Of a stretch of DNA of 64,000 nt, positions 2 through 59,384 are shown piece by piece. Source of the DNA: Phycisphaerales bacterium (lineage in GTDB: Bacteria > Planctomycetota > Phycisphaerae > Phycisphaerales > SM1A02); contig JASMLR010000003.1 of the NCBI GenBank assembly GCA_030748575.1, positions 1 through 64,000 on the forward strand, read 5' to 3'. Position 1 is the first letter of the stretch; the number at the start of each line of letters is the position of its first letter. Made by a program: the position numbers and the translations under genes. Under the pieces are notes generated by a model. The model worked only from the letters and a program-made list of their open reading frames with translations. It was not told where the DNA came from and made no database searches.

Positions 2-868
2 CCAGAGGTGATCGGGCAGGGGATCACCGTGTACTTCACGGATCTGGATTGGGGTGGTGTGTCCTGCGCGATTCTTGCCGACCGCATGTTCAAGTCATCA
101 CCAACCATCGCGGTTCCCGAAGGGGCGTTCCGGAATGGCTGGCCGCAGGCCGAGGGCTTCGATGCGGCTGCGCAGGCGGACGTCGCTGGTGCCGAACTGC
201 TTGGCAAGAGGCAGGAGCAGTTTCTGGAGGCGTGGTCTGCTCGCCGGGACGGTCGCTTTGCCGCCGCGGTGTTGAGTCAGACGCCGCTGTGCAACCTCGC
301 CACACTTCCGCCGGCTGCCACCTCCGGCAGCGGGCTCGCCCGCGCGGCGATTCCTGAGAGGGGTGTGTATCCAGAGGGATATACGTTGGCGGCGGATGCA
401 GACTCGAATGGGTGGCCTCAGACGGCCCGCAACCGCGCGGTACGGTTGATATCCGATGCCGATGCGGTACACATCTGCGGTGACCAGCACCTGGCGGCGG
501 TGGTGGAGTACGGGGTGGAGTCTTTCGACGACGGGGCGTGGGCCTTCTCGGTTCCGGCCGTGTCGAACACGTGGCCGCGGCGGTGGTTCCCGCCTGAGCC
601 CGGCGCCAATCGCCCCTCCGCCGCGCCGCGATACACGGGTGAGTTCCTCGACGGCTTTGGAAACCGGATGCGGGTGCATGCCGTTGCCAATCCAGCCCGA
701 TCGGGCCGCCATCCAGCCGCCCTTCACGACCGCATGCCGGGGTACGGGATCATCCGCTTCGACCGAGCGTCGGGCCGGGCAACCTTCGAGTGCTGGCAGC
801 GGCCCGAACGCGGCGTCAACGCCCCGCCCACCCAGTTCCCCGGCTGGCCCCAACACAGCGCCAACTGA
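2..868 (+). CDS. PhoD-like alkaline phosphatase family protein, C-terminal part (5' end outside window)
   Basis: The reading frame is open from the first base, so the gene begins upstream of the window; about 288 C-terminal residues are present. The stretch HICGDQHLAAVVEYG followed by WAFSVPAVSN and a Pro/Trp-rich tail is typical of the PhoD-like metallophosphatase domain, where the GDQH histidine is a metal ligand. Members are usually exported phosphodiesterases/phosphatases with Fe/Ca centres, but export cannot be judged because the N-terminus is missing. The stop codon TGA (866-868) is also the first three bases of a 98-bp palindromic repeat. The family call is fairly firm; the substrate is unknown. 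Confidence 0.75.
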   Translation, partial: PEVIGQGITVYFTDLDWGGVSCAILADRMFKSSPTIAVPEGAFRNGWPQAEGFDAAAQADVAGAELLGKRQEQFLEAWSARRDGRFAAAVLSQTPLCNLATLPPAATSGSGLARAAIPERGVYPEGYTLAADADSNGWPQTARNRAVRLISDADAVHICGDQHLAAVVEYGVESFDDGAWAFSVPAVSNTWPRRWFPPEPGANRPSAAPRYTGEFLDGFGNRMRVHAVANPARSGRHPAALHDRMPGYGIIRFDRASGRATFECWQRPERGVNAPPTQFPGWPQHSAN

Positions 869-963
869 CCGCCGGTCACTTTATCTCCTTGCCTTGCAAC
901 GAGTTATGAAATCACGGTTTTGTAACCTGTTGTCCTGTAAAGAGATAAAGTGACCGGCGGTCG
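866..963. repeat. 98-bp REP-like palindromic element, copy 1
   Basis: The element begins TGACCGCCGGTCA and ends TGACCGGCGGTCG. Its outer arms (867-887 and 942-962) are perfect 21-bp inverted repeats. Inside is a second hairpin, 903-911 pairing with 918-926, with two G-T wobbles and a 6-nt loop. Two more copies of identical length lie at 55358-55455 and 56141-56238, on either side of a RAYT transposase gene. Copy 1 lies between two same-strand genes, and the upstream stop codon is its first three bases. It may also act as a transcript-end hairpin, although it has no T tract. Confidence 0.92.
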
Positions 964-52459: not shown

Positions 52460-53224
52460 TCAGTCGAGATCGACGATGACCGGGGCATGGTCGCTGCACG
52501 CCAGGCCGGCGGGGCGGTGGATGGAGGGCGTGCCTGTGGCTCGCGCTGCGGCTCGATTGGCCAGCAGGTAGTCGATTCTCCAGCCACGGTTCAGGGCACG
52601 TGCCTGGCCGCGATTCGACCACCATGAGTAGGGGCCGTCCACGTCGCCGGCATGGGAGCGGACGAGATCATCCCAGCCGTTCTCGACGATGCCGTTGAGC
52701 CAGGTTCGCTCATGCGGGAGAAAGCCACTGGTGTTCTGGTTCGACTTCCAGTGGTAGATGTCCCGCTGGTCCCGGGCGATGTTGAGGTCGCCGCCGATGA
52801 TGACGGGCCGCCGTCTCCGGCGGAGGGTGGAGAGCCAGGGCAAGAACGCCTGCATCCAGCGGTCCTTGCGTGCTTGAGCTGCCTCGCTTGAAGACCCGCT
52901 TGGGAGATACACGCTCAGCAGGTCGGCGCCGTTGATGTCGACTCGCATGACGCGGCCTTCAGCATCGGGCTCGCCGTTGATCCCGGTGCCGATGACCTTC
53001 AGCGGGAGTTTCGAGAATACGGCAGTGCCGGCGTATCCGGGACGCTCGGCCGGGTTCCAGGCGGCGTGCCAGTCGCGAAAGGGGTTGGTGTCGTCGAGTT
53101 GGTCCGGCCTGCATCGAATCTCCTGAAGCATGACGACGTCGGGATCGATCGCGTCGATCCAGTCGGCCAGGCCCTTGCGGATGGCGGCTCGGAGCCCGTT
53201 GACGTTCCAGGTCAGAAGTCTCAT
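52460..53224 (-). CDS. xth: Exodeoxyribonuclease III (ExoIII/AP endonuclease family)
   Basis: A 254-residue endonuclease/exonuclease/phosphatase-fold nuclease for abasic-site repair. TWNVNGLRAA starts it, VVMLQEIRC holds the metal Glu, GGDLNIARD the Asp/Asn pair, and CSDHAPVIVDLD the catalytic His. A TAGCAT box ends 10 nt before the ATG; no Shine-Dalgarno. It is divergent from the prolyl oligopeptidase gene with 72 bp between. Confidence 0.95.
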   Translation of the reverse strand: MRLLTWNVNGLRAAIRKGLADWIDAIDPDVVMLQEIRCRPDQLDDTNPFRDWHAAWNPAERPGYAGTAVFSKLPLKVIGTGINGEPDAEGRVMRVDINGADLLSVYLPSGSSSEAAQARKDRWMQAFLPWLSTLRRRRRPVIIGGDLNIARDQRDIYHWKSNQNTSGFLPHERTWLNGIVENGWDDLVRSHAGDVDGPYSWWSNRGQARALNRGWRIDYLLANRAAARATGTPSIHRPAGLACSDHAPVIVDLD

Positions 53225-53234
53225 TGGGGAGGGA

Positions 53235-53240
53235 ATGCTA
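53235..53240 (-). promoter_or_regulatory. Putative -10 box (TAGCAT) for xth
   Basis: On the minus strand TAGCAT ends 10 nt before the xth ATG. A TACACT box for the divergent gene lies at 53268-53273 on the plus strand. Confidence 0.4.
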
Positions 53241-53296
53241 TCGGCGGCGGTCGTGGTCTGTGGTTCTTACACTTCCCGAACAGGAGGGCAGAGGCC

Positions 53297-55360
53297 ATGA
53301 CATACGGAGTGCTTGCGGCAGTGCTGATGAGCGGGCTGGTTCCACCGGAGCCGAGGGTTGCTCCGGTGGTCACGATTGAGCATGGCGTGACGCGGGTCGA
53401 CCCCTATGCGTGGATGCGAGATCGGGACACGCCCGAGATTCTGGCGCATCTCAATGCAGAGAATGCCTATGCCGATGCGATGACCGCTGATCTCGAAGCG
53501 CTGCGTGAAGACCTCTACGCGGAGTTCCTTGGCCGGATCGTCGAGGACGATGAGAGCGTGCCATGGTTGGGAGAGGATGGGTGGTTGTATTGGAGCAGGA
53601 CCGAGACGGGAATGAACTACCCGGTGCTCATGCGGCGAAAGGGTGAGATTGAGCAGGTCGTTCTTGATGAGAACCAGATGTCGGAGGGGCGCGATTACTT
53701 CAGTGTGACGGCGTGGGCAGTGAGCCCCGGGGGTGACATGATCGCGTGGCTTGAGGACACGACCGGGTACGAGCATGCGACGTTGCACATTCGGGACATT
53801 GAGACCGGCGATGCGGTCGACGAGCCGATCGAGCAGGTCGGCGCGTTCGATCTGGCATGGCTCGATGATCATTCGTTGTTCTACACGAGGTATGACGCAT
53901 CGAGCAGGCCGGACAGCGTGTACAGGCATGAGATCGGGTCACCGGTGGCCTCCGATGTCGAAGTCGCCCGCGAGGATGACGGGCGATTCTGGGTCGGGGT
54001 CTCGAGACTTCGAGACGGCGCAGGCGTTGTGATTCCAATCGGGTCGACCATGACCAGTGAGGTGCTGTTTGTTCCTGCCGGGAGCGAGGCTGGTGCTCCG
54101 AAGCCCGTGCTCCCGCGGCAGGACGGCGTCGAGTATGACGTGGAGCATCAGGGAGATCGGTTTCTTGTTCGCATCAATGACACGGGGAAAAACTTTCGGT
54201 TGGTGGAAGTGGCGGACGAGGCGATCGGGCAGACCCGGCGGGAACTTGTTCCCCATGACGATGAGGTGTATCTCACCGGTGTGACTGCATTCGAGGATGC
54301 GATCGTGCTCTCAGAGCGACGCGGTGGATACGCCGCGCTGGAGGTATTGGGCCCCAGTGGCGGCGAGCGGCGCCTCGTGCCAGTGCCCGAACTTGTATCG
54401 ACGATCGGTGTGGCTGGGGGAAACGAGGTGTACGACGCGGCCTCGGTGCGGGTCTCGTACATGTCGCCGGTGACCCCTCCTCAGACGGTGGATATTGACT
54501 TTGAAGATCTGTCGTGGAACGTGCGAAAGCAGCAGGAGGTTCCTGGTTGGGATCCATCCAGATACGTGGTGACGCGTGTGGTGGTGCCGGCGCGGGATGG
54601 AACGCAGGTCCCGGTGTCCATGATGCATCTGGCAGGTCAGAAGCCGGATGGATCGCATCCGATGCTTCTCTATGGGTATGGAGCCTACGGGTCGTCCATG
54701 AATCCCTACTTCTCGACGACTCGACCGTCACTGATTGACCGGGGGGTTGTGTACGCCGTGGCGCACGTTCGGGGTGGCGGTGAGATGGGGCGGGGCTGGT
54801 ATGAGGGTGGCAAGTTTCATGAGAAGACCAACACGTTCACGGACTTCATCGATGTAGCTGAAGGGCTGATCGATCTTGGGTGGGCCGATCCGGATCGGAT
54901 CGCCATTGAGGGTGGCAGCGCCGGAGGGATGCTGATCGGCGCGGTACTCAACATGCGGCCTGACCTTTGGCGCGTTGCGCACGCATCCGTTCCCTTTGTG
55001 GATGTGATCAACACGATGCTCGACCCGACGATTCCCCTGACGGTGGGGGAGTATGAGGAGTGGGGCAATCCAGCAGACGAAGCCTTCTACAAGACGATGC
55101 TCGGGTACTCGCCGTACGACAACGTGGCCGCGAGGCCGTACCCGACCACGCTGGTGACCGCAGGTCTGAACGACCCAAGGGTGCAGTATTGGGAGCCCAC
55201 CAAATGGGTTGCGCGGCTGCGTGACTACACAACCTCAGACGCACCGATCATTCAGCGAACCAACATGGGCGCCGGCCACGGAGGCGCCAGCGGCCGATAC
55301 GACCGCTACCGCGAAATCGCCTGGGAAGACGCCTTCCTCCTCCACCATCTGCACAACTGA
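53297..55360 (+). CDS. Prolyl oligopeptidase (S9A), oligopeptidase B-like
   Basis: A 687-residue serine peptidase. The N-terminal segment (DPYAWMRDRDTPEILAHLNAENAY) and propeller precede a hydrolase domain with nucleophile Ser in EGGSAGGMLIGAV, Asp in AGLNDPRVQYWEP and His in MGAGHGGASGRY. The first residues are hydrophobic and may be a signal peptide. It should cut after proline or basic residues in short peptides. AGGAGG lies 9 nt before the ATG. Its stop codon is the start of REP copy 2. Confidence 0.93.
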   Translation: MTYGVLAAVLMSGLVPPEPRVAPVVTIEHGVTRVDPYAWMRDRDTPEILAHLNAENAYADAMTADLEALREDLYAEFLGRIVEDDESVPWLGEDGWLYWSRTETGMNYPVLMRRKGEIEQVVLDENQMSEGRDYFSVTAWAVSPGGDMIAWLEDTTGYEHATLHIRDIETGDAVDEPIEQVGAFDLAWLDDHSLFYTRYDASSRPDSVYRHEIGSPVASDVEVAREDDGRFWVGVSRLRDGAGVVIPIGSTMTSEVLFVPAGSEAGAPKPVLPRQDGVEYDVEHQGDRFLVRINDTGKNFRLVEVADEAIGQTRRELVPHDDEVYLTGVTAFEDAIVLSERRGGYAALEVLGPSGGERRLVPVPELVSTIGVAGGNEVYDAASVRVSYMSPVTPPQTVDIDFEDLSWNVRKQQEVPGWDPSRYVVTRVVVPARDGTQVPVSMMHLAGQKPDGSHPMLLYGYGAYGSSMNPYFSTTRPSLIDRGVVYAVAHVRGGGEMGRGWYEGGKFHEKTNTFTDFIDVAEGLIDLGWADPDRIAIEGGSAGGMLIGAVLNMRPDLWRVAHASVPFVDVINTMLDPTIPLTVGEYEEWGNPADEAFYKTMLGYSPYDNVAARPYPTTLVTAGLNDPRVQYWEPTKWVARLRDYTTSDAPIIQRTNMGAGHGGASGRYDRYREIAWEDAFLLHHLHN

Positions 55361-55455
55361 CCGCCGGTCACTTTATCCCCTGTTCTCACAACCACTTACA
55401 AAACCACGTTTTTGTAAGTCGTTGTCGCACAAAGGGTTCAAGTGACCGGCGGTCG
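55358..55455. repeat. 98-bp REP-like palindromic element, copy 2
   Basis: Same ends as copy 1 (TGACCGCCGGTCA and TGACCGGCGGTCG). The outer arms pair over 15 bp, then diverge, so this is the most decayed outer stem. The inner hairpin is 55395-55403 with 55410-55418, nine Watson-Crick pairs. It contains the stop codon of the upstream peptidase (first 3 bases) and the last five codons plus stop of the RAYT gene on the other strand. Confidence 0.92.
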
Positions 55456-56082
55456 GCGGGGTGGGCGGAGCGTGTGCGTCAGTCCGATTCGCTCCGCCAT
55501 CTCTCGGGTCCATGTGGGGTCACCCAGTGGCCTGCATCGCCGCATGGACTCGGTCACGGACCGCATGGACTCCATGCACATCGGCTCAATGACTGGAGGC
55601 GCGAGCCGCTTGAGCCGCGGCATGTGGCCCACGGTCGGGTCGATCTGACGTCTGGCGCTGCCCCACCTCCACTCGGCCGGGTGTGCGCACAGGTTGGCCT
55701 TCACCGGGTTCCAGTGGATGTAGTGGATCAGCCGTTCCAGATGCGCCCCGCCCTGCACGGGAACCGCCTTGTAGGCGCGTTGATACAGGGAGCCCTGCCC
55801 CAGAGACTCGTGCCGCGTGCGCCAGCGTTTGGCGTGTGTGCCGCACAGCAGCTCCATGAAGCGGGGAAGGTCGCCGCGGCCTTCCGGCTCGACGTCCAGG
55901 TGCCAGTGGTTTGGCATGAGGCACCACTCAAGGAGTTCAATGTGGACCTTTCGGCGGGCGGACTCCAGGAGGTCTACAAACTCCAGATAGTCCTCGTCTG
56001 ACAGGAACATCTGCTGCTTGTCCACCCGCCGGTTGAAGACGTGAACGTTGAGGCCGCCAAAGTTGGGTCGCTTACGCGTCAT
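55438..56082 (-). CDS. REP-associated tyrosine transposase (RAYT, Y1_Tnp/IS200-like)
   Basis: A 214-residue HUH transposase of the RAYT group. The HUH motif is CLMPNHWHLDV (H59-W60-H61) and the nucleophile Tyr is most likely Y104 in YQRAYKA; LIHYIHWNPVKANL is the conserved C-terminal helix. The start is ATG 56082 (MTRKRPNF), since the first 32 residues of the longer frame are unconvincing. RAYTs bind and nick single-stranded palindromic REP DNA. It is flanked by two copies of the 98-bp repeat, and its last five codons lie inside copy 2. The gene looks intact. Confidence 0.92.
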   Translation of the reverse strand: MTRKRPNFGGLNVHVFNRRVDKQQMFLSDEDYLEFVDLLESARRKVHIELLEWCLMPNHWHLDVEPEGRGDLPRFMELLCGTHAKRWRTRHESLGQGSLYQRAYKAVPVQGGAHLERLIHYIHWNPVKANLCAHPAEWRWGSARRQIDPTVGHMPRLKRLAPPVIEPMCMESMRSVTESMRRCRPLGDPTWTREMAERIGLTHTLRPPRRPPVT

Positions 56083-56140
56083 GCCACCACCATGGCGGCC
56101 CCTGATCCCAACTTGCCCAACTGCTGCCAAAAAGCCACAC

Positions 56141-56238
56141 TGACCGCCGGTCACTTTATCCCCTTGTGACACAGGCACTTACAGATCCACGGATCTGTAA
56201 GATGTTGTCAGAGAACGAGATAAAGTGACCGGCGGTCG
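56141..56238. repeat. 98-bp REP-like palindromic element, copy 3
   Basis: Same ends as the other copies. The outer arms pair over 19 bp. The inner hairpin is the strongest: 56178-56188 with 56191-56201, 11 complementary pairs. It lies between the RAYT start and the RND pump stop, whose TGA begins at 56243, 3-5 bp outside the element. Confidence 0.92.
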
Positions 56239-56240
56239 GG

Positions 56241-59200
56241 TCAGGGCTCGGGGCTGGTGCGACCGAAGCCGAACTTGTGTCGCAGCGTTTCCACGACCAC
56301 GTAGAGGGTGGGGACGATGAGCAGCGTCACGAACGTCGCCACCAGAATCCCGCCGAACACCGTTGTGCCGATCGACCGATTGCTCATGCCGCCAGCCCCC
56401 TGCGCCAGCACCAGCGGAAGCACACCGATGCCGAACGCAAGCGCCGTCATCAGAATCGGCCTCAGTCGCAGCGTTGCCGCTGTGACAGCGGATTCGACGA
56501 TGCCGCCGCCCGCTTCTCGGTGCTGCTTGGCAAACTCAACCAGGAGGATCGAATTCTTCGCAGCCAGGCCGATCAGCATGACCAGTCCAATCTGTCCGTA
56601 CACATCCAGCGCGTACCCGCGAATCATGAGGAATCCGAGCGCGCCAAGAATGCCAGGCGGGACGGCCATGAGAATGAGAATGGGCAGCGACCAACTCTCG
56701 TACTGCGCAGCGAGGAAAAGGAAGACGGCGATCAACGCGAGCGCGAAAACATACGGCGCCAGATTCCCTGCCTTGATCTCCTGATACGTGAGCCCGGACC
56801 ACTCGTAGCCGATGCCCTGCGGAAGCGTTTTCTCAAGAACCCGCTCCATCACCTTGATTGCGGTGCCGCTGCTGTACCCCTCTGCGGCGCTGCCATTGAT
56901 CGGGATGGAGTCGTAGATGTTGTAGTGGGGGATGTTGTTGGCGCCGGTGATGCGGCTGACGGTCGCAAAGGACCCCAACGGCACCATCGATCCGTCCCGT
57001 GTTGGAATGCGGACTGTCAGGACATCCTCTGGTTCGGTGCGATACCTGGACTCGGCCTGGATCATGACCTGATACACACGCCCAAACCTGTTGAAGTCGT
57101 TGATGTAGTACGACCCAAGTGCTGCCTGCATAGCCGTGAAGAGCGACCCGATGTCAACGTTCGACGCCTCAGCCTTCGTCCGGTCGATATCGAGCCAGAG
57201 TTGGGGCACGTCGTTTCTGAAGGTCGTATACACCCGCGACAGATATGTGCTGGCAGGCTCTTTGGTGTTCGCGGTGTAGAGCACCTTCATCGCGGCGTCA
57301 TGGAGGGCATCTATGCCGAGGTCGTTGAGATCCTGCAGTCGAAGGTCGAACCCGCCGACGGACCCGAGCCCTTGAATGGCCGGCGGATTGACTGCAAACA
57401 CCGAGGCCCCTGGAATGGTCGCGAATTGCTCGTTCAACCTCGCTTCGATATCAGCGGCACTTTGCCCAGCTTCAGTTCGTTCGTCCCAAGGCTTGAGGAT
57501 GGGCACCATGAATCCAGAGTTGACCTGACTGATGCTTGCGATGAAGTCATAGCCGGCGATCTCGATGACTTCGGTGATCTCAGGAACGTCCTTGCAGATC
57601 TCATAGACCTGCTTCTCGACAGCCAGCGTCCTCTCCAGTGTGGCGCCTGAGGGCAGTTGAATCGCGATGAAGAGATATCCCTGGTCCTCGTCCGGGACAA
57701 ACCCCGTTGGCGAAGCCAGGAGCAGTCCAAATGTGGCGGTCAGGATTCCAGCGAGAATGACAACCGCCAGCCATGCAACTTTGCTGAAGCCCTTCACGAT
57801 CGATCCATACGTCTGCGTCATCCAATGGATGGCGACATTGACGGGTGTGAACAGTCGCTTGATCAAGCCTTCGCCAGTTCGCCGCTTCAGAATGAGTGCG
57901 CACATGGCAGGCGTGAGCGTCAGCGAGACGATGCTCGAGAGAATCACAGAGAAGGCGATCGTCAACGCGAACTGGTTGTACAGCTGACCGGTGATTCCGG
58001 GCATGAGTGCGGCGGGAACGAAGACCGCAAGGAGTACCAGTGTTGTGGCGACAATGGGTCCCCGCACTTCTCGCATCGCCTTGGACGTGATGTCCACCAT
58101 CGAGACGTTCTCGTCGGCTTCTTCCATCCCCCGTTCGACGTTCTCAACGACGACAATGGCGTCATCGACCACCAGCCCGACGGCCAGCACCAGGCCGAGG
58201 AGCGTCAGCATATTGATGCTGAAGTCAAACGCGAGCATGATGGCGAAGGCGCCAATGATGGAAACCGGAATGGCGATGATTGGAATGAGCGTTGCCCGGA
58301 ACGACTGAAGAAAGATGAAGATGACCAGGACAACGAGGCCGACGGCTTCGAGAATCGTCCAGATCAGGTCAGAGATGGCCGCGGTGACGAAGTCGGTGGC
58401 GTTGTAACTCAGCTTCCAGGTCATCCCCTCAGGGAGGTTCTTCTCGAGCGACGCCATCGTCTCTTCGATTCCGGATGCAACATTGAGTGCGTTGGCTGTT
58501 GTGAGCTGAAACACGCCGAGCTGCGCGGCGGGTTGCCCGTTCTGCATGCTGTCGCTGACGTAGGACGCTGCCCCCAGTTCAACTCTCGCAATGTCCTTCA
58601 GCCGAACGACCTCGCCAGGCGACGCTCGAAGAATGATGTCACCAAACTGCTCAGCGGTCACGAGCCGACCCAGCGTGTTGATCTGCATCTTGAAAGCCGG
58701 GCTGCTCTCAAGAGGAGGTACGCCTACGGATCCAGCCGCGACCTGCTGGTTCTGATCACTGATGGCCGAGACGATGTCTTCGGTCGAAATCCGGTAGGTC
58801 GACATCAGGTCGATGTTGAGCCAGATTCGCATGGCGTACTGGCGAAGGCCGAAGTTCGTCACGCCGCCGACGCCCGCGACGCGTTTGAGTGGATCGGTGA
58901 TGTGGATGTCGGCGTAGTTGCTCAGATAGGCGCTGTCATAGCGGCCGTCCGGAGAGAGCAGCGAGACGACCGCGGTCATCTGAGTTGACTGCTTGGTGAC
59001 GGTGACGCCCGTCCGTTGAACCTCCTCGGGGAGCCTGGCTTCAGCCTGCTGCACGCGGTTCTGGACGTCTACAGCGCCAATGTTCTGGTCATAACCGACT
59101 TCGAACGTCACGACGATGCTTGAGACGCCGTCGTTCGTGCTTGACGAGGACATGTAGATCATGCCCTCGACGCCATTGACCTGCTCTTCGATGAGCCTGG

Positions 59201-59384
59201 TAATGACCGAAGAGACCGTCTCGGCTGAGGCGCCGCTGTAGTTGGAGGTCACTGTGACCTGAGGGGGCGCCACCTGCGGGTACTGCGCGATGGGCAGTAC
59301 ACCCATGGCCACGCCACCGGCAATTGTGATGATCAGCGAAATGACCGTGGCAAAGATCGGCCGCTTGATGAAAAAGTCGATCAT
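56241..59384 (-). CDS. RND multidrug efflux pump, inner-membrane transporter (HAE1/AcrB-like)
   Basis: A 1047-residue proton-driven transporter with 12 membrane helices and two large periplasmic loops. MIDFFIKRPIFATVISLIITIAGG starts it. The VGLVVDDAIVVVENVER segment holds the proton-relay Asp pair of helix 4, and GLAAKNSILLVEFAKQ the helix 10 Lys. Residues such as PDEDQGYLFIAIQLP mark the HAE1 family. With the adaptor and outer-membrane protein it forms a tripartite pump for amphipathic compounds. Start overlaps the adaptor stop as ATGA. Confidence 0.95.
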   Translation of the reverse strand: MIDFFIKRPIFATVISLIITIAGGVAMGVLPIAQYPQVAPPQVTVTSNYSGASAETVSSVITRLIEEQVNGVEGMIYMSSSSTNDGVSSIVVTFEVGYDQNIGAVDVQNRVQQAEARLPEEVQRTGVTVTKQSTQMTAVVSLLSPDGRYDSAYLSNYADIHITDPLKRVAGVGGVTNFGLRQYAMRIWLNIDLMSTYRISTEDIVSAISDQNQQVAAGSVGVPPLESSPAFKMQINTLGRLVTAEQFGDIILRASPGEVVRLKDIARVELGAASYVSDSMQNGQPAAQLGVFQLTTANALNVASGIEETMASLEKNLPEGMTWKLSYNATDFVTAAISDLIWTILEAVGLVVLVIFIFLQSFRATLIPIIAIPVSIIGAFAIMLAFDFSINMLTLLGLVLAVGLVVDDAIVVVENVERGMEEADENVSMVDITSKAMREVRGPIVATTLVLLAVFVPAALMPGITGQLYNQFALTIAFSVILSSIVSLTLTPAMCALILKRRTGEGLIKRLFTPVNVAIHWMTQTYGSIVKGFSKVAWLAVVILAGILTATFGLLLASPTGFVPDEDQGYLFIAIQLPSGATLERTLAVEKQVYEICKDVPEITEVIEIAGYDFIASISQVNSGFMVPILKPWDERTEAGQSAADIEARLNEQFATIPGASVFAVNPPAIQGLGSVGGFDLRLQDLNDLGIDALHDAAMKVLYTANTKEPASTYLSRVYTTFRNDVPQLWLDIDRTKAEASNVDIGSLFTAMQAALGSYYINDFNRFGRVYQVMIQAESRYRTEPEDVLTVRIPTRDGSMVPLGSFATVSRITGANNIPHYNIYDSIPINGSAAEGYSSGTAIKVMERVLEKTLPQGIGYEWSGLTYQEIKAGNLAPYVFALALIAVFLFLAAQYESWSLPILILMAVPPGILGALGFLMIRGYALDVYGQIGLVMLIGLAAKNSILLVEFAKQHREAGGGIVESAVTAATLRLRPILMTALAFGIGVLPLVLAQGAGGMSNRSIGTTVFGGILVATFVTLLIVPTLYVVVETLRHKFGFGRTSPEP

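Follow-up and report, generated by a model that had tools for sequence, protein, structure and literature searches.

The window, that is, the whole stretch of 64,000 nucleotides that was analysed, contains a gene for a REP-associated tyrosine transposase (RAYT) located between a prolyl oligopeptidase (POP) gene and a gene for an RND/AcrB-type pump. A copy of a palindromic element lies on either side of the RAYT gene, and a third copy lies 54 kb away. The features are as follows.

53066..55360, plus strand: prolyl oligopeptidase gene, left of the RAYT gene, with Pfam S9 domains; the coordinates are those of the listed frame, whose true start may lie further inside; its orthologues in relatives served for the synteny test
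55359..55454, no strand: REPIN copy flanked by the stop codon of the prolyl oligopeptidase gene and the 3' end of the RAYT gene; the genome-wide model search scored it at E about 3e-20
55438..56082, minus strand: RAYT gene, 214 aa, HuH motif NHWH, Tyr motif YIHWNP
56142..56237, no strand: REPIN copy flanked by the 5' end of the RAYT gene and the 3' end of the RND pump gene (E about 1.5e-21, same search)
56241..59384, minus strand: RND/AcrB-type pump gene, right of the RAYT gene, Pfam ACR_tran
867..962, no strand: REPIN copy 54 kb off, directly at a gene's stop codon (E about 6e-22)
867..886, no strand: one REP unit, the left arm of that copy, GACCGCCGGTCAC hairpin plus TTTATCT box; inverted partner at 943-962

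An earlier note on this DNA had described an intact RAYT gene between two palindromes of 98 bp sharing 13-bp ends, and a third 98-bp copy. The gene and the palindromes lie where it had placed them, and exact matches to the 13-bp end GACCGCCGGTCAC occur at 867, 950, 55359, 55442, 56142 and 56225. The length of 98 bp holds if one flanking base is counted on each side, but the core itself, GACCGCCGGTCAC...GTGACCGGCGGTC (GACC...GGTC), measures 96 bp in the three window copies and 96-97 bp genome-wide. The last codons and the stop codon of the RAYT gene (55438-55454) are inside the neighbouring element, with the stop 17 nt in. No known RNA families or tRNAs were found in the window, a promoter and terminator scan yielded nothing above shuffles, and a search for plasmid relatives of the RAYT locus found none.

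The RAYT reading frame is intact and matches Pfam Y1_Tnp with E=1.8e-13; no other Y1 gene occurs in the 2.38-Mb assembly. Against NCBIfam REP_Tyr_transpos the protein scored 66 bits (E=3e-18) and missed the curated equivalog cut-off of 80 bits, which is a naming threshold and not a functional feature. An AlphaFold model built with 23 homologues had a pLDDT of 86.6, and its top match among solved folds was 4er8 (E=1.2e-7), a REP-associated tyrosine transposase (TnpAREP) bound to a REP hairpin. Thus, the protein has the motifs of TnpAREP, a Y1 HuH domain (NHWH) together with Y---NP (YIHWNP), and its model has the fold. It resembles TnpAREP classes 2.1-2.8 and 3 (PMC6006769) in its Y1 HuH domain and in the class 2 motif Y---NP, but the tryptophan of NHWH does not occur among the residues given in that work. 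Class 2.1 comes close to this RAYT in motif and length and was described as being without REPs; class 3, which is listed for Planctomycetes, has a Y----Q motif and a CnGA foot (PMC6006769), neither of which is found in this RAYT and its element. An NHWH-motif RAYT clade that carries REPINs is new.

Pattern and covariance-model searches, on which all copy counts rest, detected 16 full and 3 damaged copies of the element in this genome, dispersed in intergenic DNA, although not all compound copies could be resolved. The earlier note had counted three copies because the remaining ones lie outside the window; those three are all present, but they are a minority. The pattern search returned 39 arm matches in the genome and 1 in a reversed control, and the CCGCCGGTC core is present in 32 of 32 arms of the full copies. 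All 16 full copies had E values of 2e-15 or lower in the genome search, with a model (R1) built mostly from this genome's own copies, which biases the scores, though not the self-match of the arms. The three damaged copies are as follows.

C2:67956-68074: element with a longer spacer
C13:16940-17035: element with a decayed arm
C33:242962-243199 (L035): partial element in a compound cluster where elements overlap and single REPs also occur

When folded as single-stranded DNA, the copies gave z = -7.8 to -9.8 relative to dinucleotide shuffles. These values and the E values of the covariance model exclude a chance origin of the palindromes. Each element consists of two inverted REPs, has a set length and forms a hairpin, and a single REP arm can also fold as a short hairpin. 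Mean pairwise identity in this genome was 0.69 over the whole element and 0.96 over its 18-nt ends. Because the conserved ends, drifting spacer and near-constant length match the marks described for REPINs (PMC3116915), the element is best interpreted as a REPIN that consists of two inverted REPs of ~20 nt around a variable spacer of fixed length, and not as one long REP. The earlier suggestion of a new REP class therefore stands in part: the 98-bp unit is a REP doublet, whose size and layout have already been described (PMC3116915), but the hairpin foot has neither GTAG nor CGTC, with a GAGATAAA-like box in its place (alignment A1). We also considered a cloverleaf or other element-specific pairing within the spacer. 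No such pairing was found, and left/right chimeras tested for compensatory changes gave p 0.04-0.11, weak at best, so this candidate was rejected, and nothing found here speaks for a role of the spacer fold.

The nearest RAYT outside this genome (L046) is from the Phycisphaerales MAG ALOHA_ZT_36, which matches G100/G205 and belongs to a different genus. It is 46% identical by tblastn and 49% identical in the genome search, and it likewise lies between prolyl oligopeptidase and RND pump genes, the pump gene being a 78% identical orthologue. The 98-nt element adjoining it has 5 copies in that genome; its hairpin is GACCCGTCGGGTC, and it shares the TTTATCTC box and has a spacer resembling the one here. 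Between the two hairpin types, five stem pairs are changed on both sides. In the RAYT tree, these two proteins are joined at 100/95, and the pair groups at 100/99 with the RAYTs of G088 and G089, which are flanked on both sides by hairpin repeats of their own, TTGACTCCGAGTCAA and AACTCACCCCCGGTGAGTT, and neither of which is at the POP/RND locus. A third genus combines yet another hairpin with a similar backbone: two G088 elements match more of the spacer motif than TTTATCTC alone (p 5e-5 and 1e-4 against shuffles). The motif, TTTATCTC..TTGTnnnnCAA..TTAC, is partly kept across three genera, and the hairpin changes.

The genome count, the locus comparison and the tree indicate a RAYT that is single-copy and vertically kept. 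These observations bear on the idea that the RAYT and its two flanking palindromes form an autonomous element that moves as a unit, with the other copies being its MITEs. The bracketing of the gene by two copies would fit such a unit, as would the terminal inverted repeats of other planctomycete RAYTs, for example that of the congener G001. However, the genome has a single RAYT, the gene occupies the same chromosomal place in two genera, and in G100 the element was found on one side of the RAYT only, all of which make this account very unlikely.

Other RAYTs of the phylum are accompanied by repeats of various kinds. The single Y1 gene of G001 (L089:1170-1929) is of a different clade and has 23-nt terminal inverted repeats (TIRYT type). 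RAYTs of genus g19 (L186:1580-2551 and L189:1522-2569) are bordered on either side by series of hairpin REPs, each having its own sequence. Palindromes of 68-100 nt were seen near other planctomycete RAYTs (L047:4792-4891; L103:1109-1198 and 1897-1984; L096:1199-1272 and 1948-2015), and a RAYT with a nearby palindrome may be a widespread layout in the phylum. An 88-nt nearly perfect palindrome starting ATTTATCTCG, from another family of the order (L184, G211:C168:3073-3160), may be another REPIN-like element or a product of chance.

We compared the distributions of the element and the RAYT among 181 genomes of the family. The covariance model detected the element in 9 of these, seven of them in genus g1, to which this genome belongs, the others being G100 and, with a weak signal, G088; the rest of the set yielded no copy. 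When these genomes were searched for the RAYT, the top-scoring matches came from G100, G088 and G089. These results bear out the proposal that RAYT and palindrome belong together. Well-kept element populations occurred only where a RAYT of this clade was present. End identity was 0.96 in this genome and in G100 and 0.41-0.64 in six congeners scored as lacking the RAYT, a call made from incomplete MAGs (draft genomes) and inspection of the locus, so that a copy elsewhere may have gone unseen. Arm match was similarly higher with the RAYT (p=1e-7 per element), a value that is optimistic because elements within one genome share history and relatedness was not corrected for. The copies in these six congeners were mostly decayed, which holds for G001, the carrier of a different-clade RAYT; a few well-kept single copies were found at G002:C11, G003:C30 and G005:C198. 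Among 400 genomes of the order, the exact TTTATCTC...GAGATAAA pair was confined to two, each of which has a RAYT at the POP/RND locus.

At the POP/RND site itself, each of G005 and G006 lacks the RAYT and retains a single decayed element, G007 has a degenerate stretch, and G008 has nothing; in G001, the RND gene does not adjoin the POP gene. The earlier note had held that the same repeat in relatives lacking a RAYT would speak against the pairing. Such relatives do carry it, but partner loss fits better than independence because their copies are mostly decayed and a remnant element is present at the RAYT locus. On the simplest reading of the sequences, an ancestral RAYT would have been lost several times, sometimes leaving one element behind. 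No transposition, excision or empty site was seen for the elements in the genomes compared. It might be supposed that another enzyme or recombination spread the elements and that the RAYT is a passenger, and the moderate copy number and strong spacer divergence do suggest that recent movement has been rare. However, the end identity of 0.96 and the exact TTTATCTC...GAGATAAA signature occur only in RAYT genomes, leaving this account with a probability close to nil. Thus, the pairing of RAYT and element is strongly supported.

Almost every isolated copy touches the 3' end of one gene or more, and there was no clear copy between two diverging genes, with genes called by frame composition only. 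At ~10 edges, including that at the prolyl oligopeptidase gene, the neighbour's TGA stop is formed by a T outside the element and the element's own GA. In G100, the stops of neighbouring genes are mostly 10-13 nt outside. Because of these edges, and because the RAYT gene ends within its own element, the elements could be seen as gene-end cassettes, with stop codons either targeted by the enzyme or favoured by selection very precisely, which we consider doubtful. CT is directly outside 18 of 32 element edges in this genome, against a base rate of 5%; this is the dinucleotide cut by studied TnpAREP enzymes (PMC8266576), and the rule fails for the G100 elements. The same placement, the TGA stops and the strong hairpins could also point to host 3'-end signals, bidirectional terminators or mRNA stabilisers that are beside the RAYT by accident. 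In contrast to that expectation, T-runs typical of intrinsic terminators were no more frequent than in shuffles, most of the family lacks the elements, they decay without the RAYT, and hairpin and RAYT change together across genera. We therefore regard it as improbable that they are primarily host signals, though a secondary host role may exist.

Taken together, these findings very probably describe a REPtron, in which the RAYT, a domesticated transposase encoded by one vertically kept gene, serves a small REPIN family in trans. This reading follows from the gene, the element family with its fixed length, conserved ends and variable spacer, and the co-occurrence with the RAYT clade; it follows also from the joint change of RAYT and hairpin between genera and the decay of copies where the RAYT is missing. 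In the mechanism we propose, the hairpins of the two inverted REPs would form the element ends. Judging from related enzymes, the RAYT would bind these hairpins in single-stranded DNA, its tyrosine would cut at the adjacent CT dinucleotide, and the enzyme would rarely copy or move an element into a new intergenic site. Such activity would place the ends under selection and let the spacer drift. That copies persist mainly at the 3' ends of genes is probably due to insertion being harmless there. The foot without GTAG or CGTC counts against this mechanism, as it makes guide recognition of the kind seen in known REPs conjectural here.

The REPINs and RAYTs of Pseudomonas fluorescens (PMC3116915) are alike in having two inverted REPs with conserved ends and a variable spacer of set length, a long hairpin, intergenic location and a single-copy RAYT. 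In contrast, there are 16 copies here, whereas 101 GI doublets were aligned there, and here the GTAG foot is missing and a spacer motif is partly kept as the hairpin changes across three genera. REPs were reported from Planctomycetes in 2013, with GTAG/CGTC REPs, REP dimers with 20-100 bp spacers and TIRYTs (PMC3733652), but the foot of the present hairpin belongs to neither type. Among the papers accessible to our literature search, there was no report of REPs in Phycisphaera-type bacteria. Thus, RAYTs, REPINs and planctomycete REPs are already known; what is new is the GAGATAAA-like hairpin foot and a natural gain-and-loss series within one genus. These results add marine Phycisphaerales to the groups in which the well-documented RAYT/REPIN pairing is found, here with a hairpin foot that falls into neither of the described superfamilies. 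A single genus and its neighbours constitute a natural experiment, with sharp ends where the RAYT is present and, where it is absent, decayed ends together with a leftover element at the empty locus, and the question of what keeps REPIN populations alive therefore becomes directly testable.
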